Part shown: positions 12,818-55,028 of the stretch, piece by piece
Layout of the letters: every line of letters begins with the position of its first letter
Position numbering within the stretch: the first letter of the stretch is position 1
IMG/VR virus record: IMGVR_UViG_3300050821_002577
Span: 1 to 59,747 of that record
DNA length: 59,747 nucleotides
Strand: one strand, 5' to 3'
From: a virus
Made by a program: the position numbers and the translations under genes
Notes under the pieces: model-generated
Seen by the model: the letters and a program-made list of their open reading frames with translations, nothing else
What the model was told of the DNA's origin: nothing
Databases searched by the model: none

Positions 12818-13069
12818 TCAGCCGCAATCCCCATGTCCCCAGAAGTGCAGCGCCGCACCGCCCACGAGGATGCCGAGGACGAAGATCAAGATCGGCTGGT
12901 TGAGCGTGGTCTTCCGCGTCCAAGCTGTCAGCGTGCCGGAAACCCCGACAGTCGCCAGGGCTATCCCTTCATGTATCGCGAAGGTCAGAACGATGGTTCC
13001 AACCCACGCTCCCCAGGAAGCTACCAGCGACACAGCAACCCCGTCTCGCGGCTCAGCCGCACGGCCCAT
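12818..13069 (-). CDS. Membrane protein of the lysis cassette, holin candidate
   Basis: A protein of about 83 residues with two membrane segments (VGTIVLTFAIHEGIALATVG and ILIFVLGILVGGAALHFW), linked by TLTAWTRKTTLNQP. Its start overlaps the end of the upstream lipoprotein gene; a GTG about 17 codons later is an alternative. Two-TM membrane proteins next to an endolysin are commonly holins. Confidence 0.6.
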   Translation of the reverse strand: MGRAAEPRDGVAVSLVASWGAWVGTIVLTFAIHEGIALATVGVSGTLTAWTRKTTLNQPILIFVLGILVGGAALHFWGHGDCG

Positions 13070-13281
13070 GGCACGTTCGGGCCGAAGGAATTGGCGAAGG
13101 CTTGCGTAGCGCACGCCAGTTTCGCGGCATCAGACAGCACGGCAAAGCCGGTGTTGACGATCGTGACGATTTGGGGGACGGCCACGGCGGTGGCGACCCC
13201 AACCCCTGCCGCCATTGGAACGGCGCAGCCCCCGAGAACGAGGACTGCGCCTATCGCCAGATTACGGGGCCGGAGCGGCAT
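13021..13281 (-). CDS. Putative lipoprotein of the lysis cassette
   Basis: An 86-residue protein with a type II signal peptide: basic N-terminus (MPLRPR), hydrophobic stretch and lipobox LGGC at residues 16-19. The mature part is Val/Ala rich with no charged coiled coil, so it is not a typical Rz1 spanin. Start overlaps the end of the upstream gene. Confidence 0.65.
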   Translation of the reverse strand: MPLRPRNLAIGAVLVLGGCAVPMAAGVGVATAVAVPQIVTIVNTGFAVLSDAAKLACATQAFANSFGPNVPWAVRLSRETGLLCRW

Positions 13282-13594: not shown

Positions 13595-14275
13595 CTACGA
13601 TTTCCCTAGAAGCTCATCCCAGAACCGCACGAGCCAGTTTCCGTTCTTTGGCGCTGGCGGCGTCGCCGGAACGGCGAACGATCCCGTCGCGCACCATCTC
13701 CTGAACATGGGGAGGGTGCACGCCAGCACGTCTAGGTCGAAGCTCCCCTTCTCGCCCTGGAACGTCCCGCGCTGGCTGCGTTGCCAAATTAGCCATTGCC
13801 TTGACCAGTCCGGCGTCGATACGCCATCCCACGCCGGCAAACGCGGAAATGCGTTGTATTCTGGAAACGCGCGCGGAAGGGCCGCAATGGCCTGAATTAT
13901 GGTATCGGGCGGGTCGATACCATAGTAGGCCATCGTTGGCCGCTTCAGAAGCCCATCAGCCCAAAGGAGAACCGTCGAGTCCATTACCCCGGCAGCTTCC
14001 CAATCGAGAACCGCAGGCATTGTGGGGCCGACAACGCTATCAAACTTGGCGATAGAAGCTTCCGAATCACCCGACGTAAGGAACGGATAGGCCAGCGCGA
14101 CGATATCTACCTTGTCCGCTCCCGTTGCATTCGTCGAAAACAAAGGGTCTTCGTACACGTTTTGAACAGCTTTGATATATGCGAAATCCACACCGTCAGC
14201 CTTCAACTTGGGCCAGTCGATCATACCCTGCCAGTGCGAGACATCCACTCCTTTGACGAGCGCATCATAGTTCAC
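13595..14275 (-). CDS. Endolysin, GH25 lysozyme
   Basis: A 226-residue GH25 muramidase that hydrolyses the N-acetylmuramic acid-N-acetylglucosamine bond of peptidoglycan. The N-terminal pattern GVDVSHWQGMIDWPKLKADG and FAYIKA is typical, the DWE at about residue 93-95 contains the catalytic acids expected of the family, and AYYGIDPP and WLIWQRSQ are later conserved segments. There is no signal peptide, so export needs the holin. Size fits the family. It starts four bases into the upstream small membrane protein gene. Confidence 0.9.
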   Translation of the reverse strand: MNYDALVKGVDVSHWQGMIDWPKLKADGVDFAYIKAVQNVYEDPLFSTNATGADKVDIVALAYPFLTSGDSEASIAKFDSVVGPTMPAVLDWEAAGVMDSTVLLWADGLLKRPTMAYYGIDPPDTIIQAIAALPRAFPEYNAFPRLPAWDGVSTPDWSRQWLIWQRSQRGTFQGEKGSFDLDVLACTLPMFRRWCATGSFAVPATPPAPKNGNWLVRFWDELLGKS

Positions 14276-15104: not shown

Positions 15105-17378
15105 TTAGTTTGAATGGACCTGGGCCGTCGCCGCTATATCGATCGAGGCGCATGTTCCGGCCGTGATGGAAAAAGCCACATAATCCCCCGCCGTGATCGC
15201 GGGGGCAGACACAGTTCCATCGACTACCGTGCCGGCGCTAGTCACGGTTACTGTTCCGATTGTGGTTGGCGTCGAGGAGCAGCTTGCGCTTGTACCGCAC
15301 TCGTACATCGTGATCGTCGGGTTGCTAACGCAGGAGAATGTCGCGGCAGAACCTTCGATATTGTCAACCGTCGCGGCTTTCGAGAATTTATGGAAAACCG
15401 CTTTGGTCGCATTCACTGCCGTCAGCAGACCAGGCTGATAGCTGACGTGCTCCACGGCGTTGCTCGATACGGTGCTGCCGCTCTGACCTAACCCTGTACC
15501 CGCAGTCGTAAATCCGGTTCCAAGACCGCACCCAGCAGAGAGAGCAACGACGCCACCGCCAGATACCTGACAGAGAGCGGCCTGTGCCGTTCCAGACGTA
15601 GCCAGGGCATTCGCATTCAGCGTGCTGTCCAGTTGCAAGGCACTGCCTATTTCGGTGCCTGTGACCGGAGCGGTAACGCCGTTTATCCCGACGTTCCCTC
15701 CATTGGGATTAATCACAGTTGGCGTGTATGCAGACCCGGTGCGAACCGATTGAATGAAGCCTGAGCCATTAGTGCCGAGCGCGGCGTCGTAGCCCATGTA
15801 GAGCTTCTTAGCTTCGGTAGTGGGATTGCTGATAGCAAAAGCGCCGGCCCCGTTCGTGCTGTAGGTTCCGGCCTGGCTAATCTCCAAACTAAAGTTTGGA
15901 GATTGAATGCCGATTCCGACTAAGTTTAATCCCGGAAACGAAATCAGCTTATTAGCTGAATCGATCGCAACATTGGCGCTATACGCGCCACCAACGATAG
16001 AGGAATAATTGCCGATGGCTCCGAGATAGGCGCTCCCTCCTTCAAGTCGCAGATATTCACCAGCACCAGTTCCGCTCGACGCTCCGTTTAGCCGTTCCAC
16101 GACGGTTCCCGTACCGGGGCCGATGTCGAGATTGTATGTTGGGTTCGTGCTCGCCGGAAGCATAACGCCCATTCGGTTTTGAAATATGGAATAGTCTCCA
16201 GCGGCGTCCACAAGGATGCCATGGTAGAACGAAGAACGTTGCCCGTTATAAGTGCTTAAAAAACTCTGGCTAGTCGCCGCACCACCCGCGACAAGAGTAA
16301 CGCTAGTATCAACCAGTCCAGGAGAAACGTTCTGCTCCCCAACGCCTGTTGCGTAAAAATAGCTCCCTTGAGAAGTTGCGCCATGGTCTCCGCAATAAGC
16401 ATGGGAAACGGTGTTGTTTTTTATCGCGCCGCCGCCATTAAAAAATGACGTGCAATAGGAGTAATTTTGCAATTCTATTATGCCGGCGCTCACATAGTTC
16501 CCGGTGTTTCCTCCACCAATGCCCATAAACATGAATGGCGCGCCATTAGTCTCGGCGTCGCCCGACGTATAGTCAACCGTATACCCGATATGCTTTATTC
16601 CATTAGCGGAGCTATTAAATGTCGCAGCGCGGCGCATGTAGCTGAACGTATCGTTTTCACTGTATGAGTTGTATCCTTGGAATTGAGCAGTATCCCCTGT
16701 TCCGCCGCCGCTGGAAGTGCCGCCCCACACGAAGGCATCTTGGTTACAGGCCGGCGCTACGCATGTAGTGGTTCCAACCCAATGATTATCGTGAGAATGG
16801 ATTGTCGTGTAGCTCGCAAACAACAGGGGAACAGTATCTCCGGCATTACCGTTTGTGATATTCATGTGGTCAAGTTCCAGAATGCCAATTCCTTTGGCGA
16901 CCATCTTTCCTGCTCCCGCCCCGGCATAAGGCAGGATAAGCGTCGAACCTCCGGTTGGACTTTGATTATTCAAAGTGCCGTCCCACGCGGGATTGGTCCC
17001 GGTAAGCCGAACCGGGCCGGCCATTTTGGGAGGAGATGTACCCGTGAATGGAATTAATAGCTGACTGGTATGTAGACAGGACTTTCCGTTTGGAAATGCA
17101 ACCGCTCCACCGCCAGCACTGAGCGCGGCGGTTATTGCGGCATCGATCTTTGATGAATCATCCGTCGTGCCATCGCATTTCGCGCCGTAGGCCATCACCT
17201 CATACGGAACACCTGTTCCTGCCGTAATCGTGTTCGTGCCGTTGTTGACGCCCGTGCAACCCTGAGCAGGTGTACAGGGAAAGGCAAAACCACCCGAATC
17301 TTGCGGCTGGTTTTGCGCGTTAGCAGGCGTCAGACCAAGCAGTAGGGCAACTGCGATGGCCGTTATTTGTAAAAGCAT
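15105..17378 (-). CDS. Tail spike-like protein with signal peptide, pectate-lyase-like fold
   Basis: A 757-residue protein. Residues 1-22 form a Sec signal peptide (MLLQITAIAVALLLGLTPANA, cleavage after ANA). About residues 60-90 hold VMAYGAKCDGTTDDSSKIDA, a hallmark of phage tail spikes with right-handed beta helices (YGAkgDG..DD...i..A), and the middle is full of short Gly/Asn-rich strands. The C-terminal third has repeated small beta segments. The start overlaps the upstream gene by 16 bases. A signal peptide is unexpected for a tail protein. Confidence 0.75.
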   Translation of the reverse strand: MLLQITAIAVALLLGLTPANAQNQPQDSGGFAFPCTPAQGCTGVNNGTNTITAGTGVPYEVMAYGAKCDGTTDDSSKIDAAITAALSAGGGAVAFPNGKSCLHTSQLLIPFTGTSPPKMAGPVRLTGTNPAWDGTLNNQSPTGGSTLILPYAGAGAGKMVAKGIGILELDHMNITNGNAGDTVPLLFASYTTIHSHDNHWVGTTTCVAPACNQDAFVWGGTSSGGGTGDTAQFQGYNSYSENDTFSYMRRAATFNSSANGIKHIGYTVDYTSGDAETNGAPFMFMGIGGGNTGNYVSAGIIELQNYSYCTSFFNGGGAIKNNTVSHAYCGDHGATSQGSYFYATGVGEQNVSPGLVDTSVTLVAGGAATSQSFLSTYNGQRSSFYHGILVDAAGDYSIFQNRMGVMLPASTNPTYNLDIGPGTGTVVERLNGASSGTGAGEYLRLEGGSAYLGAIGNYSSIVGGAYSANVAIDSANKLISFPGLNLVGIGIQSPNFSLEISQAGTYSTNGAGAFAISNPTTEAKKLYMGYDAALGTNGSGFIQSVRTGSAYTPTVINPNGGNVGINGVTAPVTGTEIGSALQLDSTLNANALATSGTAQAALCQVSGGGVVALSAGCGLGTGFTTAGTGLGQSGSTVSSNAVEHVSYQPGLLTAVNATKAVFHKFSKAATVDNIEGSAATFSCVSNPTITMYECGTSASCSSTPTTIGTVTVTSAGTVVDGTVSAPAITAGDYVAFSITAGTCASIDIAATAQVHSN

Positions 17379-17710
17379 ACGAACCCCGTCGCCGCAGATG
17401 CGGTTTGGATGAGTTGGAGGGATGCCAGATTGCCGCTGTATGGGAGCCACGACGTTCCGGCGAAAATCGTCAACCCTAACGTCGCGGTCGGCGCAACCCC
17501 GTCATCGCGGTAGTTGACGTTCTGGCTGGACACCTGAATGTCCGCAAGCGTCGCACCTTGCGGGATGCCAACGCTGCTGAGGAAAGCTGCCGTCGCCATA
17601 CTCGGCAGCGGCGCGCACCCGAGAGGCTGCCACGAGCCAGAATGAACGCCCTGCGCCAGCGCTGCCCCGGAACACAGGACGAGGGCGGCAAGAGATGCGA
17701 GGAGCTTCAA
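17363..17710 (-). CDS. Small exported protein of the tail fibre cluster
   Basis: A 115-residue protein starting at TTG after GAGGAGGATGGC. Residues 1-19 are a clear signal peptide (MKLLASLAALVLCSGAALA). The mature part (VSSQNVNYRDDGVAPTATLG; TIFAGTSWLPYSGNLASLQL) is beta-rich with conserved Cys near each end. It lies between two larger fibre-type genes and probably shares their assembly path. Confidence 0.7.
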   Translation of the reverse strand: MKLLASLAALVLCSGAALAQGVHSGSWQPLGCAPLPSMATAAFLSSVGIPQGATLADIQVSSQNVNYRDDGVAPTATLGLTIFAGTSWLPYSGNLASLQLIQTASAATGFVCFYK

Positions 17711-17720
17711 GCCATCCTCC

Positions 17721-20183
17721 TCAATGGATCGACTTCGTATCGGTCGGAGCGGCGCTATACGTCACCGAGAACGTTTCGTTTGGTCCGATGTCTACCATGC
17801 AGGGCGTACTCGTACAGACGGTCGTGCCTCCGCTCGCGACCTTAACCGCCGTGACCGTACCGCCAGTAAGATAGTGCGTCTCGGGAGATGGCCCGGCAGT
17901 GTACGCTGCGGTAGCAAGCGGCGAATATGTCCCGGACGACACCCCTACAGGGTTATAGCCAGGGTTATTCGTAAAGATATTGTGAGCACCCGTCGCACTG
18001 TTGCTGATGGGAGCTACCGCGCTGACAAAGTTATTATTGTAGACTTCAATGTAATCCCCGGTTCCGGCGCTCAGTAAAATCCCGATAGCCCCCGTAAATA
18101 CATTACCGTCAATAATTGAGTTTCCGATGTTTCCGCTCATTACGATATCTGTTCCACTGTTTGTGGACAGAATGCTCCCAAGAACTTGGAGGTATCCCCC
18201 AGAGCCGTTAAGATGGATGCAAATAGGCGTGTTGTTGCACGTCACTCCGGTGAATCGTTCGTTCGCGAAATTGGTTTCGAACCTAGCCTCTTCGCAGGCA
18301 AGCAAGACGCACCCGCTCATCTCGGTTCCGCCACCCGCCGCAAAATTCGCACCCTCAACCGCCCAGAAACCATAGTGGAGAGTGCCGCCGATAATTTCGT
18401 CGGTAAACGAAAGCACGCTGGGACCAGACCCGCCCGCCGCATTGTCCATCACCACGCCAGCATAAAAAACTCCGGTATGGTCGTTATCGTTGCTATAGAT
18501 GTTCAATCCGCTTTGGATTTCTTCTGAATAGTATGTGTATGGAGCCATAAATTTCCAAGTAGCCGTCCCATCCGTGAATGAGTTTTCGTAAGGAAGAACC
18601 GTGGGCGACGAACTTCCTGACGTTCCTGTCGCCAGAAGAACCATGAGACATCCATTAGATATTACGCACCCCGCCGTATTGTTTACGACAGTTCCCAAAA
18701 TGGAATAATTATTATTTGGCAACCATGCCGGAATATCGGTCGCAGAAGGAAAAACTGGCGCTGATCCCTGCGGGCCATTCTGGTCGAACTTGTTTCGGAA
18801 GATGAACGCCGCATTGCCCGCGCCGGGGTTGACAGTCAGAATTGCCGTACCGTAAGAGAATTGAAAATCGTTGTTGAGCAGTATGTTGTCCCCTCCCGTT
18901 ATGTCTACCCCCGTCCCCCACTGCGAAAAGACATTGGTGATCGAACTCTCGTTGCCCGCACTTACGAGCGCCGGATGCGTGGCGTTTATCGAGTTGTCGC
19001 CCAGAATCATCATGTTCGAAAGAGAGATTCTGCCCACCCGAAGCGTCAGCGTCGTAACGTCTCGACCGCAAGCGTCAAGAGAATCGGGGATGAACGTGCC
19101 GGAACCCATGATATTCTGAAAATAGCCAGTGGCGCTCGCCGCCTGCCCGTAGACGATCCCTCCAGGTACGCAAAAATGACCCGGCGGGAAATAGAGGTTT
19201 CCGTTCGTGGTGTTCGCAAGGTTAGCTGCCGCCTGAACCGCCACGGTATCGTCCGTTCCATACACGTAGTTCGCGTTCGTAATGGAGGTTCCCGCCGCAA
19301 ACCCCAGCGTGACCTGCGTGGCGCTCGTGTATCCGGTAATCGTCGTTGCCAGTACGGTCGCGGTCGGCCCGGCCCCGTTGACGGCGATGACCTTGTTTAC
19401 CGGGCCAGTACACCCCGTTCCCGGCGGCGCGCAATCTCCCGGCTGAAAAACCCCAGACGCCGACGTGAAAACCTTGCTTCCAGACGTGGTAGTTCCATCG
19501 CCGTTCGGCCCTCCGTACGGGGGATTTGAAATCGCATCCCCCTTCGCACCGAAGCATTTGGCGTCAACCCACGGGGAGCCGGAACAGAAAAACGTGTTGA
19601 ACGGGACAGTTCCGGCCATTTGCGCCGTGAATTGCGTGAACACCAATCCTGTCTGACCGATCGATATCGGCGGGTTAGTCGTGAGCACAAAACTTACCTT
19701 CCCGTTCACCCCGCCATTGACCGCGTAAACCGATACCCCGTAAAAAAGCTGGCTCGATTGCTGCGCGTCCGTGGTTCGCACCAATTGAAACTTGGCGAAA
19801 CCGCCACCCGTCGCCGTGACCTGATAGATGCCGTTCTGATAAGGCAGGGCTTGATTTTTGACCAGGACACGATCGCCGAACACGACGCTATAGCCGTCAA
19901 TCGTCAGTGCGCCATTGGTGGTCGCGGTAAGCGTTGCGTTGATCCCAAGCGAACCGTTGTTGTAGACAGGGGCATTGGAGAGCGCCGCTATCGTGGCTGC
20001 CGCTACCGGCGACAGGGGGAAGAGGCCCAGATTGTTCCCGGTGATCGGCCCGCTGACCGCAATGGTATTAACCTGGGGTAGCGTGCCGCCTACGACGCAT
20101 TTATCGCCAACACAAGTCGGTTGCGCGAGTGCGAGATGTGACCCCGCGAAAACGAAGAGCGCCGCAAGAATCCGACGCATCAT
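17721..20183 (-). CDS. Large tail spike or fibre-type protein with signal peptide
   Basis: An 820-residue protein starting at ATGATG with GGAGG in front. Residues 1-19 are a signal peptide (MMRRILAALFVFAGSHLALA), followed by QPTCVGDKCVVGG. Further on there is FGAKGDAISNPPYG and TDDTVAVQAAANLANTTNGN, the same YGA/FGAkGD motif as in the spike gene downstream, which marks a beta-helix spike. Central repeats are Asn/Gly rich, as in polysaccharide-binding spikes. Overlaps the gene upstream by four bases. Confidence 0.75.
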   Translation of the reverse strand: MMRRILAALFVFAGSHLALAQPTCVGDKCVVGGTLPQVNTIAVSGPITGNNLGLFPLSPVAAATIAALSNAPVYNNGSLGINATLTATTNGALTIDGYSVVFGDRVLVKNQALPYQNGIYQVTATGGGFAKFQLVRTTDAQQSSQLFYGVSVYAVNGGVNGKVSFVLTTNPPISIGQTGLVFTQFTAQMAGTVPFNTFFCSGSPWVDAKCFGAKGDAISNPPYGGPNGDGTTTSGSKVFTSASGVFQPGDCAPPGTGCTGPVNKVIAVNGAGPTATVLATTITGYTSATQVTLGFAAGTSITNANYVYGTDDTVAVQAAANLANTTNGNLYFPPGHFCVPGGIVYGQAASATGYFQNIMGSGTFIPDSLDACGRDVTTLTLRVGRISLSNMMILGDNSINATHPALVSAGNESSITNVFSQWGTGVDITGGDNILLNNDFQFSYGTAILTVNPGAGNAAFIFRNKFDQNGPQGSAPVFPSATDIPAWLPNNNYSILGTVVNNTAGCVISNGCLMVLLATGTSGSSSPTVLPYENSFTDGTATWKFMAPYTYYSEEIQSGLNIYSNDNDHTGVFYAGVVMDNAAGGSGPSVLSFTDEIIGGTLHYGFWAVEGANFAAGGGTEMSGCVLLACEEARFETNFANERFTGVTCNNTPICIHLNGSGGYLQVLGSILSTNSGTDIVMSGNIGNSIIDGNVFTGAIGILLSAGTGDYIEVYNNNFVSAVAPISNSATGAHNIFTNNPGYNPVGVSSGTYSPLATAAYTAGPSPETHYLTGGTVTAVKVASGGTTVCTSTPCMVDIGPNETFSVTYSAAPTDTKSIH

Positions 20184-21589
20184 GCGATCCTCCGGCGTCG
20201 AACGACCGCTGCAACGGCGACGCAGAAGGAAATCAGGATGCCCATTGAAAGCCACCGGATTTCGTTCTGCTGTTCCTGAACTGCCACGATGAGCGGAGCG
20301 ACCAATTTTCCGTAGTCTAGCCGTTCGATGTTATCGACCGTCCGCTGCGTACCGTCTGCGAGAGTGATGGTGTCGCTTCCACCCGCCGTCACAATCTCGG
20401 GAAATATCTTTGCCACCGATTGCGCCCCAAGCCCAAGCTGGCGGCCCTGTTCTTTTGCCATCTTGGCGTCGGCCCAAGAGAAATAGCCGGGACGCAGTTG
20501 CATGATCGCGCTCAATCCGGGCACACCGTGATCGAAGTCGCCCTTCAGCCGCTCATCCGAGGGAATGCAGGTTGCGCCAACCGTGCGGGTAATCGCTGTC
20601 GTTCCCGTTGTCGCGGCGAAGCACGCCGACGCGTTGCTTGCCGTTCCGCCAACAAGATTAGAAAACGTGCCGGTGCTGTCATCGAGTACCCACGCGCCCT
20701 GAATCAGCGGGGCAGTTGTGAGCACTATAAGGCCGCTGCCCGTTACTCCGTTGGAGAGGCCACTAGCGGCTGGAGCGCACGAGCCGCCATTGGTACAGGT
20801 AGCGCCCGCGACTGTTATGGCTGTCGTCGATAAGACGCCGGCGGTGTCGGCGATCGTCGCATTGTCCGGCTTCACGACGCCGTAGACGGACGGCGTGGAG
20901 ATTGCGATGGCGGGCGCTCCATCGCTGCGCATAAATGTAGAAGCAGAACCATTGACCGCAACATTGCCAGCCGTTGCGGTTGGGTTCGCCCCCACCGGCA
21001 AGGCGGCCTGCACAAAAGCAGTGGTTGCGACCTGTGCGGTATTGTTGCCGCCGCCCGCTGTCGGGGCTGTCGGAGTACCGCTTAGCGTCGGGCTGACGAT
21101 GGAGGGGCTGGTATTCAGAACGACAGCGCCGGTTCCAGTGCTGCTGGCGAACCCCGGATTCGGGTACGTACCGTTGAGAACGCCCCCCGCCGTCACGCCG
21201 AATAACGCGCTTCCCGGCACGTTATCGATCGTCCAGATAGGAGTTGACGGCGGGTCGCTGTCGCCTTGCGGAGCCAGGACGTACTTATAATTCTGGCTTT
21301 CGGTCGCCCAAATGCCGACCGAAGCCCCTAGCGAGTTTTGCGGTTCGCCACGAGAGTTTAGGACTATCGGGTTTGTCTGCGCTATTGATCCGGTCGAATT
21401 GACAAAAGTCGTCTGTTTGGTGGTGGTCCCGGCACCGTAGGTAAAGAGAAGGCAGCCGACACATGGGTTGCCGCTGTTATCGTTAAAATGGGGGATCGCG
21501 TCGGGCGCAAGCTGGAAGCCGTCCGCTACGGCAACGGCAGGCCATAGCAATGCGCCAAGCAGCAGGAACCGCGCAACCGCGTGCCTCAC
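20180..21589 (-). CDS. Tail fibre protein with signal peptide, S74 chaperone domain and C-terminal TM segment
   Basis: A 469-residue protein. Residues 1-22 form a signal peptide (MRHAVARFLLLGALLWPAVA). A collagen-free, Gly/Thr-rich fibre region follows. From residue 343, PSDERLKGDFDH with LRPGYFSW, LGLGAQSVAKIFPEIV and LDYGKLVAPLIVAVQEQQNE is a peptidase S74 intramolecular chaperone domain; Ser344-Asp345 is the expected autocleavage site. Residues about 104-121 from the domain start form a TM segment (WLSMGILISFCVAVAAVV) capped by RRRR. This combination is unusual. Confidence 0.8.
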   Translation of the reverse strand: MRHAVARFLLLGALLWPAVAVADGFQLAPDAIPHFNDNSGNPCVGCLLFTYGAGTTTKQTTFVNSTGSIAQTNPIVLNSRGEPQNSLGASVGIWATESQNYKYVLAPQGDSDPPSTPIWTIDNVPGSALFGVTAGGVLNGTYPNPGFASSTGTGAVVLNTSPSIVSPTLSGTPTAPTAGGGNNTAQVATTAFVQAALPVGANPTATAGNVAVNGSASTFMRSDGAPAIAISTPSVYGVVKPDNATIADTAGVLSTTAITVAGATCTNGGSCAPAASGLSNGVTGSGLIVLTTAPLIQGAWVLDDSTGTFSNLVGGTASNASACFAATTGTTAITRTVGATCIPSDERLKGDFDHGVPGLSAIMQLRPGYFSWADAKMAKEQGRQLGLGAQSVAKIFPEIVTAGGSDTITLADGTQRTVDNIERLDYGKLVAPLIVAVQEQQNEIRWLSMGILISFCVAVAAVVRRRRIA

Positions 21590-21631: not shown

Positions 21632-22957
21632 TTAGGCTTCTAGGTTAAGTGCATACCCGAATTTGCGCAGTTTTGGCAAGCAATCCGCGACCTTCTCTCC
21701 AATGTCGTCACGATAAATCTTGTCCGCGAAGCGGATTCCTTCGACCGCCCGGTAGACCTTCGATCGCGCTTTCTCGATGGTCTTTCCCAATCCGGTGCAA
21801 ACCAGCACATACGGCCCCGTCGTTTCGTAGGTCTGTTCCTCGACGATCTTGCCATCGCGCCATACCGGCCCCTTCGCCCGCATGACCGACGCAAGGTGGA
21901 CTTGGTCGCGGAAGTCGTCCACCCCAGCGATAGGGTTGCCCTCCACCATGTCATGCGGAACGTCGTGACCATAGGGAAACGGAGGATGGGCGCAGACCAC
22001 GCCAATCGCTACGTCGTAGCTGACCCTCAGACTGTCCTTGCCTTTGAGCAGATCGAACATCCATTTTGCCGGATCGCCTCGGTGCGAAGCGGTCTGAATC
22101 CACCATGCGGGATAGCCGCACCTCGCCGTCACCTCAAGGAACCATGCCTTGCCGGAGGTATCGACGATGCAGCCAACCGAGAAATCGCCGCGATGACCAA
22201 GCGTCCGCATCACCGGCTCAAGCGGCATGAGCATTTCGTCCGCCAGCTTCTCGCTCTCCTCGTACTGGCAGACCGTGCCCATTTCCCCCGTCGCCGGGCC
22301 GTGTTCTCCGCACATGAGTTTCTTGTGCTCAATCGACAACCCCCACTTGTCGCGAAGAAATCCGTCGACGCCCATCCATCCCGAGACCCCAAGCTCGCTT
22401 AGAACTTCGACCTTTTCTTGAAGCAGGCATTGTTTCATCTGCTTGCCGGCCTTGATCTGTCGGCGTAGCCAGCCGACTAAATCCGCCGGATCGGACGCCA
22501 CATAGGTCAGCGCCTTGTTCTCTTCATCACCAGCCGGCTTGAAAACGAAGCCGCGATCTTGCTTCCGGGCGAAGGCTTCCGTCTCTTCAAGGCTGCCGAA
22601 GACGTGGTACTCCGGCACGGCGAGACCGGCGGCCTCAGCCATCTTCATCCCGGCCATGCGGTCAATCTCGATCTTCGCGCTCGCCGCGCTGGGCGCAAAG
22701 ATATTGAAGCCGAAATCTCGATATCTTTCCAACTGCGTTAGCAGCGTGAAATTCCCTGTGCAGACGACAAGACCTTCTTTGGCCCACCCCATTTCGGCCT
22801 GCCAGTTGTCCACCAGCTTGATTCGCTTGAACCCCTCGCCGTAGCGTTCCTGCCGTTTCGGCATGTGCCGGTACAGTTTGACATCGTGCCCAGCGTCCGC
22901 ACAGCGCAAGGCAAAATCGAGACCCATAAGCTCGATATCGATGACAAGAATTCTCAA
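21632..22957 (-). CDS. PurD-like ATP-grasp ligase
   Basis: A 441-residue protein related to phosphoribosylamine-glycine ligase (GARS), which joins glycine to phosphoribosylamine with ATP. ATP-grasp features: GFVFKPAGDEENK (Lys140), LLQEKVEVLSELGVSGW (178-194), DFSVGCIVDTSGKAWFLEVT with ARCGYPAW (258-284, acidic metal ligands). The C-terminus has YRAVEGIRFADKIYRDDIGE, like the PurD end (Y..v..I.F...yR.DIG). The Rossmann start is divergent, so the amide substrate may differ. Length matches PurD. It starts at TTG between the ejection and fibre genes, an odd place for purine synthesis. Confidence 0.8.
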   Translation of the reverse strand: MRILVIDIELMGLDFALRCADAGHDVKLYRHMPKRQERYGEGFKRIKLVDNWQAEMGWAKEGLVVCTGNFTLLTQLERYRDFGFNIFAPSAASAKIEIDRMAGMKMAEAAGLAVPEYHVFGSLEETEAFARKQDRGFVFKPAGDEENKALTYVASDPADLVGWLRRQIKAGKQMKQCLLQEKVEVLSELGVSGWMGVDGFLRDKWGLSIEHKKLMCGEHGPATGEMGTVCQYEESEKLADEMLMPLEPVMRTLGHRGDFSVGCIVDTSGKAWFLEVTARCGYPAWWIQTASHRGDPAKWMFDLLKGKDSLRVSYDVAIGVVCAHPPFPYGHDVPHDMVEGNPIAGVDDFRDQVHLASVMRAKGPVWRDGKIVEEQTYETTGPYVLVCTGLGKTIEKARSKVYRAVEGIRFADKIYRDDIGEKVADCLPKLRKFGYALNLEA

Positions 22958-32133: not shown

Positions 32134-32999
32134 TACTCAGCGGCATCCTCTCTGCCCATCACCGTCTCGCGCAGACGGTCAAGCCGCCAGCGACGGTCGA
32201 TCTTGATTCCGCCTTCCTCTGCCAGAGCGTACAGTGCCTCACGCTCTTCGGCTTCAGCCTGATCCGTCGCCATGAAAGCCGCGCGCTCTTCATCGGCCTG
32301 CTTTGCGGCCTTCCATGCACGGAATTCCGCCATCTCTGCGTCTTCCGGCGGCGTCGCGACATACGGCTTTGGCTCCGGCTTCACCGGCACCGCCTCGCCA
32401 CGCGAGCGTAGAATGCGCTCCTCATCCCTGGGGTCTTTAGCGATGAGCGAATCGCCGTTCGAAAAATGCAGCCACTTCGGGTAATCCCGTGTCAAATCCT
32501 CCGGCAGATCAGGGTCTTGCACCAGAACGCCGTCAACCCACTTCGGATATTCGGAACCCGGCTGACCTGGCGACAGCAGAGCCTTTTCGAAAGCATATTC
32601 GTCCGATGTGCCGGCTTCGGTGTACCCTTTCGCGCGCCACTCCGCTTCCTCAGCTTCATTCTTGACAAAGACATCCGGGTACTTCTCGGGGGTTCCGGGA
32701 ATGAGGCTCGTTACCAGCCTGCCATTGTCCAACGTTGCCCCCTGCGACGGAGGCATCGCATCGATGTGGCCGGGATGCACCAACGCCTTTGGAAACACGC
32801 TGTATTCCACGATCTTTTCCATCTGTTCTCCATAGCGCAGATAGCCGCGAGCACGCTCCCGCTCTTCCTGATCGGGGCTATGAACCTCGATCGGCGGAAA
32901 CATCTCAGGCTTTCCGGGGATTGGATTCTCCGGCCCACTGATCGTTGCCGCGACATGGTGCGGATGCACCATCAACTGCGGAAAACCCGGCGAGTCCAT
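32133..32999 (-). CDS. Repeat protein with FP/YP-K-x-HP motifs
   Basis: A 288-residue protein with repeated units: FPQLMVHPHHV, FPKALVHPGHI, YPKWVDGVLVQDP and YPKWLHFSNGDSLIAKDP, most followed by an acidic EE or DE and GY or RG turn. Proteins with such YPKW...EE repeats are common near phage structural genes, and the units probably form small beta hairpins. The C-terminus is a charged helix. Role may be scaffold, connector or cement. Confidence 0.65.
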   Translation of the reverse strand: MDSPGFPQLMVHPHHVAATISGPENPIPGKPEMFPPIEVHSPDQEERERARGYLRYGEQMEKIVEYSVFPKALVHPGHIDAMPPSQGATLDNGRLVTSLIPGTPEKYPDVFVKNEAEEAEWRAKGYTEAGTSDEYAFEKALLSPGQPGSEYPKWVDGVLVQDPDLPEDLTRDYPKWLHFSNGDSLIAKDPRDEERILRSRGEAVPVKPEPKPYVATPPEDAEMAEFRAWKAAKQADEERAAFMATDQAEAEEREALYALAEEGGIKIDRRWRLDRLRETVMGREDAAE

Positions 33000-34543
33000 T
33001 ATTCAGCAGCCTCAGCCATTGCGATCTTGTCATCGCGAATCTTCTGGATCACGCGGCAGCTATAGTCCACGCGGGTCATCTTAACCGATTTGTCCGCGAA
33101 ATACTCATCTACCGCCTGGCGGCAACCGAGCCAATGACCGTAATCATCGATTATCAACACGCCACCGGGGGCGATGCGCGGCCACAAAACTTCCAGTTCA
33201 ACTTTAGTGGAAGCGTACCAATCGGTATCGAGACGTGCGAGCGCAATCGGCCAGCTCTCATTCACAACACGAGGCAGGGTGTCTTCAACCAAACCCTTGA
33301 TGTATTGGACGTGCGGATACCCGGTGCGCGCCATGTTCGCAGTGACAACGTTTAGTGCGCCCTTAGCCATCTCGGGCTTCCATTGCTTGGCTGCCGACCT
33401 GTCGAAAAGGTCAACGTCAATCTCATCGGGGTAAGGTAACCCCTCAAACGTATCGTACAGCATGAGCCTGCGGTCCATATCGTCGCCGAACTTTTTGAGC
33501 GCCAGCGCCGCCATCATCATACTGCCGCCACGCCACACTCCGCACTCAACGATGGCTCCCGGCACCTTCTCACGGACAATGTACTCAACCGTCTTGTAAA
33601 GATCGAAAAGCCGCTCAACCGGCGTCATCGTTTCCTCGCGGCACTCGTCATAGAGCGCCCAGAAATCGGCGTCGAGGTCGGCGAACGCGGTCCTGGCCTC
33701 CGGGTCAGCCAGCATTTCGGCGGAAGAAATCGAACGGCGATCCCATTGAGCCTTCACCTTATCGATAGTGACCTGGATGCCGTCCATGATCTTGCCAGAA
33801 TTAGGATCGAGCAACCCCTTCGAAGCGGCCTTTGCCCTCCGTCTGAAAGTCGGCAAATGGTCGAGTATACGATCTTCCCATGTCCGTACGCCCTGATGCT
33901 TGAAGGTGATGTTCGGATCGACCCAGATGTTTAATCCAGCCGCCGTGACCTTGCGGCAGAACGTATAGTCCTCACCCCAAAACTTGCCGTCCTCACCCCG
34001 GCCGCATTCGAAGATATAGTGGTAATCCAGCCGCTCGCCGCCCGGCGCTTCGTCAGAGAAGATGTTCGACTCAGCCGCCAGTTTCTCCAACACGTGGCGC
34101 TTGATCCGCATGAACCCTGTCGGGACCATCGTAGCGAGTATCAACCCCTCGCTCTCAATCAACTCGCCTTCATGGCTCACTGCGAAGGTACAGGGCCAGT
34201 CCACTTCCTCTGACTTCTTCGGGTACACCCCAGCGACGATAGGATCGGGACGCAGGATGAATTCGAGCGCTTTTTCGGCGGTCCACCCGATATCGTCATC
34301 AAGGAAGAAGAAATTCTCCGTCTTGGGAAACACGCGCAGGAAATCGGTCACGAGCTTATTGCGCGCCTTATCGACGAAGCAATCGCCCGGCCGCACCATG
34401 CACCCCCATGTGATGCCATTGGCCGTAAGCAGACATTGGGTCTCCTGCAAAGACCGCATGTAGTGAGCGACGAACGAATGGCTATACGTCGGCGTCGCAA
34501 AGATAACGTTCGGGCAAAGCTCGTCTGGAACCACGCTCATCAT
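32999..34543 (-). CDS. Fused glycosyltransferase and TylF-type O-methyltransferase
   Basis: A 514-residue two-domain protein. Residues 1-270: GT2-like glycosyltransferase with NVIFATPTYSHSFVAHYM, the metal site DDD at 82-84 (FFFLDDDIGWT) and LIESEGLILATMVPTGF. Residues 334-505: TylF/MycF macrocin O-methyltransferase family with the SAM motif VECGVWRGGSM, LARLDTDWYAS and IIDDYGHWLGCR. It would transfer a sugar and methylate it. Stop and start overlap the neighbouring genes. Target is probably a virion or cell-surface glycan. Confidence 0.85.
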   Translation of the reverse strand: MMSVVPDELCPNVIFATPTYSHSFVAHYMRSLQETQCLLTANGITWGCMVRPGDCFVDKARNKLVTDFLRVFPKTENFFFLDDDIGWTAEKALEFILRPDPIVAGVYPKKSEEVDWPCTFAVSHEGELIESEGLILATMVPTGFMRIKRHVLEKLAAESNIFSDEAPGGERLDYHYIFECGRGEDGKFWGEDYTFCRKVTAAGLNIWVDPNITFKHQGVRTWEDRILDHLPTFRRRAKAASKGLLDPNSGKIMDGIQVTIDKVKAQWDRRSISSAEMLADPEARTAFADLDADFWALYDECREETMTPVERLFDLYKTVEYIVREKVPGAIVECGVWRGGSMMMAALALKKFGDDMDRRLMLYDTFEGLPYPDEIDVDLFDRSAAKQWKPEMAKGALNVVTANMARTGYPHVQYIKGLVEDTLPRVVNESWPIALARLDTDWYASTKVELEVLWPRIAPGGVLIIDDYGHWLGCRQAVDEYFADKSVKMTRVDYSCRVIQKIRDDKIAMAEAAE

Positions 34544-35388
34544 GCCGCCTTCAGATCGTTTTCAAGTTCAGGCCACGCCGCGACCATCATTTCCGCCGCT
34601 TTCGCTTTTAGGCGATCGTATCGTTCGCCGCCCGGCAAAGTCGCCGGCCACCGCTGCGAACGGCAGAAATCGTTGATCGCCTGCGATTTGTACTCAACCA
34701 GCGGGTAGTGCCGGCGCAAAATCTCTTTGCGCCACTTGGGTTCCTTGAAATCGGGCGAATCGATGATCGCCCTGGCCTGCCGACGCCGCACGAGCCGCTG
34801 GCTATCGAAAAAGGTCGCCCACCACGCGACTTCGCGCAACTCCTGCGTGGCGATCTTCGGCCCGGCATCCACCTGAACGTCAGCGAACGAAATCCGATCG
34901 ATCAAGAGCGCGATGTCATGCAGCCAGTGATCGACGAACCAGTAGGGGAAATACGGCGGGTACATGAAGCCGAGCTTCTTCACGAGGCCGTGTGTCGCGC
35001 CCTGGCTGCGCGGAAACGACCAGTTTGCCATCTGGGTATAGACCACGCCGATCCCGTCTGGGAACAGCGCCGCCGCGTCGAGAATCTTCGTGTCAAATCC
35101 CGGCGTCACGTAGGGGGTATAGTCCGCCATCGGAAAATAGACCGAAGCCTTGTAATCGAGGCCCCGATCCCACTTGGCACCCAGCGCATCCTCACGCAGC
35201 CGGCTATCGATGATAATCCGCTTGTCGATTTTCAGCTTGCCAGCGACCGCTTGCGTAGCCGCGTCATCGTCATCGATTGAAATGACGAATTGAGTGGACG
35301 CCTCACCAAGCAAGGGAATCGTCCGCTCAACCGTGTCAAGAAGCCTTTCGGGACGCCCTCGCGTAACCAGATTGATGGTCAGGTTCAT
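34540..35388 (-). CDS. Glycosyltransferase-like protein
   Basis: A 282-residue protein with LTINLVTRGRPERLLDTVER, then FVISIDDDDAATQAV, so a GT-A fold with a DxD-type acidic site. The end is basic (WRKEILRRHYPLVEYKSQAI). It is coupled to the GT-methyltransferase fusion by an ATGA overlap, suggesting a two-enzyme sugar pathway. Family membership is by fold impression. Confidence 0.7.
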   Translation of the reverse strand: MNLTINLVTRGRPERLLDTVERTIPLLGEASTQFVISIDDDDAATQAVAGKLKIDKRIIIDSRLREDALGAKWDRGLDYKASVYFPMADYTPYVTPGFDTKILDAAALFPDGIGVVYTQMANWSFPRSQGATHGLVKKLGFMYPPYFPYWFVDHWLHDIALLIDRISFADVQVDAGPKIATQELREVAWWATFFDSQRLVRRRQARAIIDSPDFKEPKWRKEILRRHYPLVEYKSQAINDFCRSQRWPATLPGGERYDRLKAKAAEMMVAAWPELENDLKAA

Positions 35389-40218: not shown

Positions 40219-42402
40219 TTAATGCGCCGGAACCCCTTCGGGCCTCAGCATGGATTCCAACATATTGTGAACCAATTCGATACGAGACAGCAGATGAGCG
40301 TTCGCCGACTGGTCCGCCTTCTGCATCGTCGAGAACAGCTTCGCCTCGAAATCAAGCTCCATCTTGCGATCACGTTGCTCGCGATCGGCAACCTGATCGG
40401 TCAGCGCCTTGGTCAATTGCACGATCTGCTGCTGCGACTGCTGCAACTGCGCCTGCATCCCCATCATCACCGCCTGCACCTGCGGCGGCACGTCCCGGAT
40501 GTCCGGGGCGGTAATGCCGGGGTGCATCTGCGCTACCAGCTTGGCGAGGCGCGTCGCGAACTCCTCCGCACCAGGCCAATCCTGGTTTTTTGCGATCAAA
40601 TCCATAATTCCTGTCGCGGCCTGCGGAGCGGCCGGCGCAATCGCGCGCACAAAATCCATCATGCTCTCAGCCGACTCGATCCGCTTCGTCGCGTAACTCG
40701 GGCCGATCGTCACAGTGACGCCATACTCGCCGAAAGTAGGATTGAAAATCTTCATGATCTTGTTCGTCTGAGGATCGCGCTCTTCCTGCATCGGCTTCGC
40801 CGCCGCCGGGTCGATGGTCACGCGCTCTTCGGTGTTGTCCTCGCGCAAGATTGTCTCGATCCGCTTTCTATTGTAAAGTTTCGGGATCAGATCGACGAGG
40901 ATAACCCCCGTGTGACGCAGCGAGCGCGAGAGGTTATCAACGAGGTGAAACCAGCTAAGATCGCCGATTTTGCGCAACTCGCGCAACGCCCGGCCGCTCT
41001 CATCATACATCAAGTCCTTTGTCGTCGCGTCGAACCGGATGCCAGTCGTGGTCATCATGTCCTGGGCGGCGTTCTGTAGCCCCTGCTGAATCCCCGCCGG
41101 AACCTGCACCGCAGGCTGCCGACTCGGGGGCGGCAACGGCTTCCCGTCTACCGCCTCAACCTTGTATTGCAAGTAAGGGTTGGAGCGGAGATTGGCGTTC
41201 TTCCACTCCTGCTCATGCCCCTCAAACTGACCCTCTGCCCCGATATACGGAGCCTTGGGAGCCAGCGCGACCATCTCGGTAAACGAAGCGTTCCAGTAAT
41301 TGTACATGCGCTGAGAGTCTTTTGCGTGGCGCACGATGCCGTTATACGTGACCTTCCCCTCAAGGTCGGTCTCATCCCCGATCACCTTGACGACGGGTAT
41401 CCACTGGCCGGGCCAATCGCGCTCGTCAATGACCTCGACCGCCGTAAGTTTGAACCACTTGATCTTATTGCACTCGGCCTCACGCTCTTCAACAATCTCG
41501 AACTTGTCGAGAACAGCCTTGTCCATGTCGTCATGCCAGCCGGTCGCCCCATTCGACAGCCGTACAAGCGTCCGCTTCTCCGTGACCATCTCGAAATACT
41601 CGGCGATCCGCACCGTGTCCTTCTTGATCCAATCCTTCATGCTATCGCCAACGCCAGTCTGCGACCACGGCATGGGCTGCGCGTCGGGATAATCGTCATC
41701 AAACTCGGAACGGGGCAATTCGTCGGAGATGAAGGCCCACTTGGCATCGGAACCGTCCGGCTCCTGGTGCGCGGGATCGAGGTAGACAGTGAACGGGTTC
41801 CTGATCCGCTTGATCGTCGCGACCTGATTGAAGCTGCTCGGCTTCTCAAACTCGGTGATGACCCGCCAATAGCCAATCCCGCCGCGCGCCGCCGAGGCGA
41901 AGCCTGTGTCGTAGGCAATGTCGGCGACCGATTTACGCTCTATCTCGCGGATCATGCCCGAATACATCTTCGCAACTTCGGGGTCGCTGCGGTCGCCCAC
42001 CGGAGACACGTTGATCGACGGCCGGTTCTGTCGCACGTCGTTAGTCGCCTGAAGCACGAACGTCGGCAGCTTGTTGACCGTTGGGCATGGGCGATTATCC
42101 AAGTTACGCTGCGCCTGAATATCGGCGGGCCACTGGTCGCCCTTGTAGAATTTCAGATCATCGACCGCGGCCTTGCGGTTGTCGCTCTCCGCCGCCGCCG
42201 CCTTGTCGAAACGCTTGCGCGCGCGCTCAAGGATTCTCGCTTCTTCGGCCCTGTCTTCCGCGCCAAGCCGCGTGTCCCGCTTGTCCTTGGCCGAACCCTT
42301 GCCGCCCGCTGTATCGCTAGGGGCGATCTTGTTCATCGCCGCGTCTACCGGCGGGAGGCTTATTGCTCCGCTATCGGGGGGGCGGCCGGGCGAATCGGCC
42401 AT
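40219..42402 (-). CDS. Portal protein (P22-type)
   Basis: A 727-residue portal protein, almost the size of P22 gp1 (725). Typical segments: FYKGDQWPADIQAQRNLDNR, CPTVNKLPTFVLQATNDVRQ, NRPSINVSPVGDRSD and SAARGGIGYWRVITEF. The C-terminal 200 residues are helical and form the barrel. It forms the dodecameric DNA channel. The gene follows the terminases through a string of small genes. Confidence 0.9.
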   Translation of the reverse strand: MADSPGRPPDSGAISLPPVDAAMNKIAPSDTAGGKGSAKDKRDTRLGAEDRAEEARILERARKRFDKAAAAESDNRKAAVDDLKFYKGDQWPADIQAQRNLDNRPCPTVNKLPTFVLQATNDVRQNRPSINVSPVGDRSDPEVAKMYSGMIREIERKSVADIAYDTGFASAARGGIGYWRVITEFEKPSSFNQVATIKRIRNPFTVYLDPAHQEPDGSDAKWAFISDELPRSEFDDDYPDAQPMPWSQTGVGDSMKDWIKKDTVRIAEYFEMVTEKRTLVRLSNGATGWHDDMDKAVLDKFEIVEEREAECNKIKWFKLTAVEVIDERDWPGQWIPVVKVIGDETDLEGKVTYNGIVRHAKDSQRMYNYWNASFTEMVALAPKAPYIGAEGQFEGHEQEWKNANLRSNPYLQYKVEAVDGKPLPPPSRQPAVQVPAGIQQGLQNAAQDMMTTTGIRFDATTKDLMYDESGRALRELRKIGDLSWFHLVDNLSRSLRHTGVILVDLIPKLYNRKRIETILREDNTEERVTIDPAAAKPMQEERDPQTNKIMKIFNPTFGEYGVTVTIGPSYATKRIESAESMMDFVRAIAPAAPQAATGIMDLIAKNQDWPGAEEFATRLAKLVAQMHPGITAPDIRDVPPQVQAVMMGMQAQLQQSQQQIVQLTKALTDQVADREQRDRKMELDFEAKLFSTMQKADQSANAHLLSRIELVHNMLESMLRPEGVPAH

Positions 42403-53928: not shown

Positions 53929-54852
53929 TCAGAGCGCTCGGGCGATAGCGCCGACAGCTAGATTTGCCGCCGCGTCCTTGTGCGCGATGTAGGAGTCATA
54001 AATGCCCGGCGATTTGTGGCGGCTCTGACGCATCCCCGACTGGCGGTCTACGCCGGCCTCATGAATCGTTGTGATCGCGCCGCGCCGTAGCGAATGTCCG
54101 CCAAACGGGCGAGGGTCAAGTCGAGCCGACTTCGCATAACGCTTGATCGCCCAATAGACATAGGCGTTGTCGATACGTTTGCCGACCTTGAACCGGGGGT
54201 GTTGGAAGAGTGGCCCTTCGGTGATCCCGCTGCATTCGAGCCAGCGTTTCATCGCGGCGATCGGACATGTTTCCGGCGTAGCACCACGGCCGGCTGCTAG
54301 TGTAACGCCGTGGCCCTGCTGATCGGTTTTGCTGCGCCGAATATGGACCAGCATCGTATCGTCGCCGTCGAATTCGATATCGTCACGATTGAGTGCGGCG
54401 ATCTCCGACCGGCGCATGGCGATGGAGAAGCCAACCAGAAGCGCGGCGCGATCCATGATGCCGACTGCGGTATCGGGCAGTTGCGCCAAGAACACCTTGA
54501 GCTTCGCCGCGTCGATAGCCTCGCGTGGTACATGGCGGTTGCCCTTGCGTCGGCTGATCTCCTTCCAGCCAAGCGCTAGTGCGTCGTCGTGGTCGAGCAT
54601 ATAAGGCGCGCGCTTAGCTTTCGGCAGTCGAGACCGTGCGTCTTTATGAGCGGCGATGATAGCCGCTCTGCGGGCGCTGAGGGCGCTGCTGGAATGCGTC
54701 GGCTCTCTGGCTCGCAAAAATTCCAACACCGTCTCTGCGGTCGCCGGGAGCGCCTTAGCGTCGATCGTGGCGCAGAACCGTTCCCAATCGCCCCAGCACG
54801 TCACGTAAAGCTCGGTTGTGCGTGGTGCGCGGCTACGCGAGAAGTCGAACAT
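53929..54852 (-). CDS. int: Tyrosine recombinase integrase
   Basis: A 307-residue integrase. N-terminal SAM-like DNA-binding region (TELYVTCWGDWERFCATIDA), catalytic residues Arg147/148 (AMRRSEIAAL), Lys175 (RRSKTDQQG), His253-Arg256 (GHSLRRGA), His279 and Tyr288 (HKSPGIYDSYI). It inserts phage DNA into the host chromosome. ATG with TAGGAG five bases upstream is chosen. attP is expected nearby but could not be recognised. Confidence 0.9.
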   Translation of the reverse strand: MFDFSRSRAPRTTELYVTCWGDWERFCATIDAKALPATAETVLEFLRAREPTHSSSALSARRAAIIAAHKDARSRLPKAKRAPYMLDHDDALALGWKEISRRKGNRHVPREAIDAAKLKVFLAQLPDTAVGIMDRAALLVGFSIAMRRSEIAALNRDDIEFDGDDTMLVHIRRSKTDQQGHGVTLAAGRGATPETCPIAAMKRWLECSGITEGPLFQHPRFKVGKRIDNAYVYWAIKRYAKSARLDPRPFGGHSLRRGAITTIHEAGVDRQSGMRQSRHKSPGIYDSYIAHKDAAANLAVGAIARAL

Positions 54853-55028
54853 CTGGTCTCCTAAAAATACTGCCGACACCGAGTACATCCGGCGCGAGGC
54901 ACCCGACTCATTATGGCTGGCCCCTGGCCGGGATTTTGGTGGCGCAGCTTGCCCGCCGGCAGCAACAGAAGCATCGCAAAAATCGCGTTCTTATGTCAAC
55001 CCTTTATGTGGATATAGGGTGAGATTGT
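54853..55028. other. Spacer upstream of the integrase, candidate attP or promoter
   Basis: 176 bases without a gene. On the minus strand TTGACA (about 54998-54993) is a good -35 element, with no clear -10. No tRNA-like 3' end is visible, so an attachment site inside a tRNA gene cannot be shown. attP may lie here or between integrase and nuclease. Confidence 0.35.

Follow-up and report, generated by a model that had tools for sequence, protein, structure and literature searches.

The virion of a tailed phage is assumed to be built entirely in the reducing cytoplasm. How a run of four consecutive genes for spikes or their presumed partners, each opening with a Sec signal peptide, could fit such a route is the question raised by IMG/VR virus record IMGVR_UViG_3300050821_002577, a stretch of 59,747 bases (the window) that, judged by its gene content, is a P22-type podovirus genome. 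Our analysis points to an answer in which the spikes are probably exported from the host cytoplasm and cross-linked by disulfides before they join the virus. The four genes lie downstream of ejection-type genes, are followed by a lysis region that includes a GH25 endolysin gene, and are translationally coupled, with neighbours that overlap or lie within ~10 bp of each other:

20180..21589, minus strand: gene 1, GTG start, 469 amino acids; signal peptide, head-binding domain, fibre region, Peptidase_S74 and C-terminal transmembrane segment
21524..21589, minus strand: gene 1 signal peptide MRHAVARFLLLGALLWPAVAVA, cut before DG; rule-based call, missing in relatives, which start at the next domain
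17721..20183, minus strand: gene 2, ATG start overlapping the gene 1 stop, 820 amino acids; signal peptide and tail-fibre/spike protein
20124..20183, minus strand: gene 2 signal peptide MMRRILAALFVFAGSHLALA, cut before QP; rule-based call
17363..17710, minus strand: gene 3, TTG start preceded by GGAGG, 115 amino acids; signal peptide and 96-residue mature protein with 2 cysteines
17654..17710, minus strand: gene 3 signal peptide MKLLASLAALVLCSGAALA, cut before QG; rule-based call
15105..17378, minus strand: gene 4, ATG start overlapping gene 3, 757 amino acids; signal peptide and probable spike
17316..17378, minus strand: gene 4 signal peptide MLLQITAIAVALLLGLTPANA, cut before QN; called with a relaxed charge rule only

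The initial annotation had described each of these N-termini as a basic n-region, a hydrophobic core and an A-x-A cleavage site. We re-examined them with a rule-based signal peptide caller calibrated on E. coli, where it found 21/21 exported proteins and called 9/98 non-exported ones, mostly inner-membrane proteins. All four open reading frames, with their signal-peptide-like N-termini, were confirmed, and in each a short hydrophobic core is followed by an A-x-A-type site (AVA-DG, ALA-QP, ALA-QG and ANA-QN), the arrangement of n-, h- and c-regions that marks a substrate of Sec and signal peptidase I. The basic n-region proved not to be universal, as gene 4 has no lysine or arginine there and passes the caller only under a relaxed charge rule. 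The caller accepted 20 of the window's 1,539 candidate starts (open reading frames of at least 60 amino acids), genes 1-3 among them at high scores, which supports the earlier statement that four in a row excludes chance; the same caller picked out none of the P22 virion genes. The residues following the predicted cuts are D, Q, Q and Q, and since none is the +1 cysteine of a signal peptidase II substrate, the four proteins are not lipoproteins. Furthermore, no gene of the four has an in-frame start codon just behind its signal peptide that would yield a cytoplasmic version: in gene 1 the next in-frame starts are residues 14 (within the signal peptide) and 124, and in genes 2, 3 and 4 they are residues 101, 38 and 61, respectively.

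Among the four, gene 1 is the decisive one, because of what lies directly behind its predicted cut:

21212..21523, minus strand: residues 23-126, P22-type tailspike head-binding (virion-docking) domain; profile and fold match
21452..21463, minus strand: CVGC cysteine pair in the head-binding domain; diagnostic of the signal peptide type

Searched against the PDB, a profile of this domain matched the Pam1 tailspike (7eeq_A, E=7e-14) and the Pan3 tail spikes (9vyg, E=4e-12, and 9vyh). Its AlphaFold model (predicted local distance difference test score 84) resembles P22 1lkt_A in Foldseek (TM-scores 0.69/0.72, probability 1.00), and further matches to the modelled domain include 8eb7, 7sg7 and 7eeq and cover P22 gp9N in situ, Sf6 gp14N, and the Pam1 and Pan3 in-virion structures. 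By profile and fold, the mature N-terminus of gene 1 thus carries the same domain as the P22 gp9 tailspike head-binding family of P22, Sf6 and the cyanophages Pam1 and Pan3. Known members of that family start at the domain and have no signal peptide, whereas gene 1 has a signal peptide in front of the domain and an additional CxGC pair within it. In cultured P22-like relatives (PBR31, Rhodoferax P26218, DSL-LC05 and others), the initiator methionine aligns with the predicted mature N-terminus of gene 1, and the signal peptide is therefore an add-on before an intact virion-docking domain. With this domain beginning at residue 23, in a phage that has a P22-type portal and the head-closure protein Hc3, the mature gene 1 protein would present a domain that docks on a P22-type tail hub. 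An IMG/VR scan returned no close relatives of gene 1 or of gene 2 as a whole.

The initial annotation had proposed looking for signal-peptide spikes in related phages, and such spikes do recur. Two IMG/VR scans for the head-binding domain, neither of which selected on signal peptides, gave 192 places; a genuine signal peptide was present at 5 of them (loci L004, L149, L182, L183 and L214), and the others start at the domain. The CxGC pair occurs in 4/5 of the signal peptide type versus 0/187 of the other head-binding domains (Fisher 9e-8), which read PLxGG at that position. The remaining case, L182, whose head-binding domain is from another subfamily, has a signal peptide and no CxGC; the pair is therefore not needed for the signal peptide form. 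An apparent signal peptide at L187 was rejected as the domain's own N-terminus, devoid of lysine and arginine. When IMG/VR was instead scanned for the CxGC pattern, again without using the signal peptide as a criterion, 18 stretches were found, and in 18/18 a signal peptide stood before the head-binding domain. The clustering recurs as well: neighbouring genes often carry signal peptides too, with four consecutive ones in L149 and L227 and three or more in L222, L219 and L234, and contig IMGVR_UViG_3300022557_000010 (L220 plus L243) has five such genes.

A second motif, QVQ[IL]GKNVQ[IV]G, was searched as DNA regardless of signal peptides. It lies at the mature N-terminus of second-tier spikes (L149, L222, L227, L243, L244 and L245), with the signal peptide cut at the motif or one residue away in 6/6, which suggests that it is a candidate mature N-terminal docking peptide. 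Across the set, the cut sites have alanine at -1 in 38/46 and glutamine at +1 in 26/46; predicted mature N-termini include those beginning DGFQLAPDAIPH, QVPVAP and QVQLGKNVQIG. A P22-type portal is present in 15/19 records of this type. Among INPHARED cultured phages, no signal peptide form of the head-binding domain was found, only relatives lacking it; by these comparisons the signal-peptide spikes belong to a scattered set of uncultivated relatives.

The cysteines of these proteins bear on the compartment in which they fold. Mature gene 1 has 6 (plus one in its C-terminal hydrophobic segment), gene 2 has 16, gene 3 has 2 and gene 4 has 14, mostly in close pairs (8 such pairs account for all 16 in gene 2), against 0-2 in each of the window's other virion proteins. 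In a non-redundant set of signal-peptide spikes of at least 250 amino acids, the cysteine count was even in 35/36, versus 30/68 of control proteins without signal peptides (p=1e-8). The median gap was 14 residues within pairs versus 84 between pairs, in the same direction in 35/35 proteins, and control proteins showed no such phase (18/42). The result stands when the CxGC pair is left out, and in proteins not selected on cysteines. Even, neighbour-paired cysteines are what disulfides between sequence neighbours would leave behind, and are difficult to account for if the proteins fold in the reducing cytoplasm. Both the parity and the phase tests thus agree with folding in an oxidising compartment, and export into such a compartment is, on this sequence evidence, well supported.

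With moderate confidence, we favour a reading in which Sec-exported, disulfide-bonded spikes would dock on cytoplasm-assembled P22-like particles after the inner membrane opens. The receptor-binding module would be synthesised as Sec precursors, whose N-terminal signals are removed by signal peptidase I, and the spikes would fold and form their disulfides in the periplasm or another extracytoplasmic space while heads and tail hubs assemble in the cytoplasm. Holin and endolysin would then open the inner membrane, the lesion also letting the two pools mix, and the mature gene 1 spike could dock on the tail hub through its P22-type head-binding domain; the remaining exported products would join this assembly as additional spikes or as adaptors. 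Periplasmic export with joining during or after lysis was among the explanations offered in the initial annotation, and it is the best supported of them, through cysteine parity and pairing and through the intact docking domain behind the gene 1 cut. Export and cleavage as such, docking at or after lysis and the way in which genes 2-4 attach are inferred. To the broader proposition, that a group of P22-type tailed phages splits its assembly between cytoplasmic heads and hubs and a Sec-exported, periplasm-matured, disulfide-bonded receptor-binding module, joined only at lysis, we would give even chances.

The C-terminus of gene 1 invites an additional conjecture:

20390..20560, minus strand: residues 344-400, Peptidase_S74 intramolecular chaperone; Pfam PF13884 E=2.5e-8, over the cut-off
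20195..20260, minus strand: C-terminal hydrophobic segment followed by RRRR; mean Kyte-Doolittle hydropathy 2.05 over 19 residues; possible membrane tether

The chaperone, hydrophobic segment and RRRR (20195-20560) together give a type I membrane topology, unusual for a fibre. Gene 1 shares PF13884 with Peptidase_S74 (endosialidase-type) chaperone fibres and differs from them in having this segment and RRRR after the chaperone, on a predicted exported precursor. Conceivably, the precursor is held at the inner membrane by the segment and RRRR until S74 autocleavage frees the spike, a conjecture drawn from one sequence. Since the segment follows S74 in 1/17 S74-like open reading frames across all loci, in this record only, an S74-plus-membrane-anchor was dropped as a general mechanism.

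Several points weigh against the reading that we favour. A recognised docking domain is present in gene 1 only, the n-region of gene 4 is uncharged, and the signal peptides as such are rule-based predictions. No prophage with a head-binding domain of the signal peptide type was found among genomes of 84,980 species. P22-type particles assemble in the cytoplasm, and spikes that have been exported would have to reach them late; P22 tailspikes are the last part to be added and can also be attached to heads in vitro, which makes late joining plausible. Moreover, the tail of Agrobacterium phage Milano holds an extensive network of disulfides (PMC10811340), and disulfides alone are therefore no proof of export; it is the disulfide pattern together with the signal peptides that makes export likely here.

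The same evidence has to be read against other explanations. The strongest of these, though unlikely, accepts both export and disulfides and changes the order of docking, with spikes and particles meeting in a membrane-associated complex, or released spikes coating particles in the lysate or biofilm as a shared pool. It draws on all of the export evidence, timing is not fixed by the sequence data, and the hydrophobic C-terminus with its positive tail behind the S74 chaperone, in gene 1 alone, would suit it; that this segment is confined to the present record speaks against a general membrane platform. We also consider it unlikely that the exported proteins act mainly on the cell surface or envelope, in receptor masking, superinfection exclusion or polysaccharide degradation, instead of being virion parts. 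Exported surface-altering phage proteins are known, such as Lom of lambda (PMC12309495), and display by lysogens, as suggested in the initial annotation, is favoured by the window's integrase (53929-54888) and by integrases in 8/19 records of the type, and disfavoured by the other 11/19, where no tyrosine integrase was detected (records may be incomplete). A complete virion-docking domain would, however, be pointless in a non-virion protein, and the genes belong to the late structural operon, where they adjoin ejection and lysis genes, with no further head-binding-domain spike gene seen among the window's open reading frames. Nor do the proteins have an outer-membrane anchor or autotransporter domain, and their mature N-termini are D or Q, not a lipidated cysteine.

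That the hydrophobic N-terminus is an uncleaved virion anchor and not an export signal, a third idea from the initial annotation, is in keeping with the cytoplasmic assembly normal for tail proteins and with the position of the segment at the docking end. It has become very improbable, because in every cultured relative the docking domain is enough by itself, the segments have the cleavable c-regions of signal peptidase I substrates described above, and they occur on four unrelated architectures with the cysteine pattern tracking them. Least probable of all is an artefact of wrong starts or of compositionally hydrophobic stretches. Three of the starts are GTG or TTG or overlap the preceding gene, and the uncharged n-region of gene 4 would fit such an origin, yet the low calling rate in the window puts four consecutive calls far below chance, and independent contigs show the same pattern in divergent sequences.

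What is new here is the export route, the head-binding domain being already known. No published Sec signal peptide on a tailed-phage spike was found in the open-access literature. Lom, Rz1 lipoproteins and the T4 RI antiholin show phage genes using host Sec, as here, but they are membrane, lysis or lysogeny proteins and not virion spikes. The Milano tail likewise has disulfide-stabilised virion proteins, as proposed here, but its disulfides join contractile sheath and baseplate subunits, and the searched passages of that report describe no signal peptide, nor does the paper mention periplasm or cytoplasm (PMC10811340). If our reading is true, a tailed phage that exports its receptor-binding module would follow a different assembly route, which would permit disulfide-stabilised spikes, keep surface-active enzymes out of the cytoplasm and make lysis an assembly step. 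Signal peptide, CxGC head-binding domain and even, paired cysteines would together form a sequence rule by which such phages can be found, and would guide correct expression of their spikes, made in the periplasm and lacking the signal peptide. Gene callers or annotators that trim or ignore such N-termini would miss the pattern.

For the remaining cassette genes, the fibre or beta-helix spike identity given in the initial annotation was only partly borne out. Residues 82-337 of gene 2 have PHROG tail fibre and pectin-lyase-like matches, and its pectin-lyase relative in BcepMigl has no signal peptide. Gene 3 has no family match in Pfam or PHROG, leaving a fibre or spike identity unsupported, and gene 4 has no family match either, relatives being found for its C-terminal domain only:

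15108..15611, minus strand: gene 4 C-terminal beta domain; four cysteines invariant among relatives

These six relatives (L236-L241) are otherwise unrelated spikes, and a signal peptide is present in 6/6. A fold search with the domain returned jelly-roll or fibre-tip matches of a generic kind, among them disulfide-linked endospore appendages with a low TM-score, and was not used.

Elsewhere in the window, genes for a P22-type scaffold, major head protein, head-closure Hc3 (phrog_578) and DNA-ejection proteins accompany the portal, a virion gene set (portal, head-closure, scaffold, DNA-ejection) shared with the P22 family, and terminase and helicase genes are also present. The features outside the cassette are:

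40219-42402: P22-family portal (phrog_156); PHROG match
53929-54888, minus strand: tyrosine integrase
13595..14275, minus strand: GH25 endolysin; Pfam PF01183 E=4.7e-14, PHROG endolysin, no signal peptide
13021..13281, minus strand: small protein with lipobox-like LVLGG-C; sequence and signal-peptide-like call, no PHROG match
21632-22957, minus strand: ATP-grasp / phosphoribosylglycinamide synthetase-like protein; Pfam GARS_C E=7e-12, no PHROG match

Given the integrase, the phage is probably temperate. The endolysin, having no signal peptide, is holin-dependent and needs a membrane lesion. The lipobox protein is a possible outer-membrane spanin or lipoprotein and, as such, a hint of a diderm host. 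The ATP-grasp gene separates the spike genes from the ejection-type genes, and its product may modify a virion or cell-surface component. Within the structural module, two further minus-strand genes (32999-35388) have methyltransferase- and glycosyltransferase-like matches.

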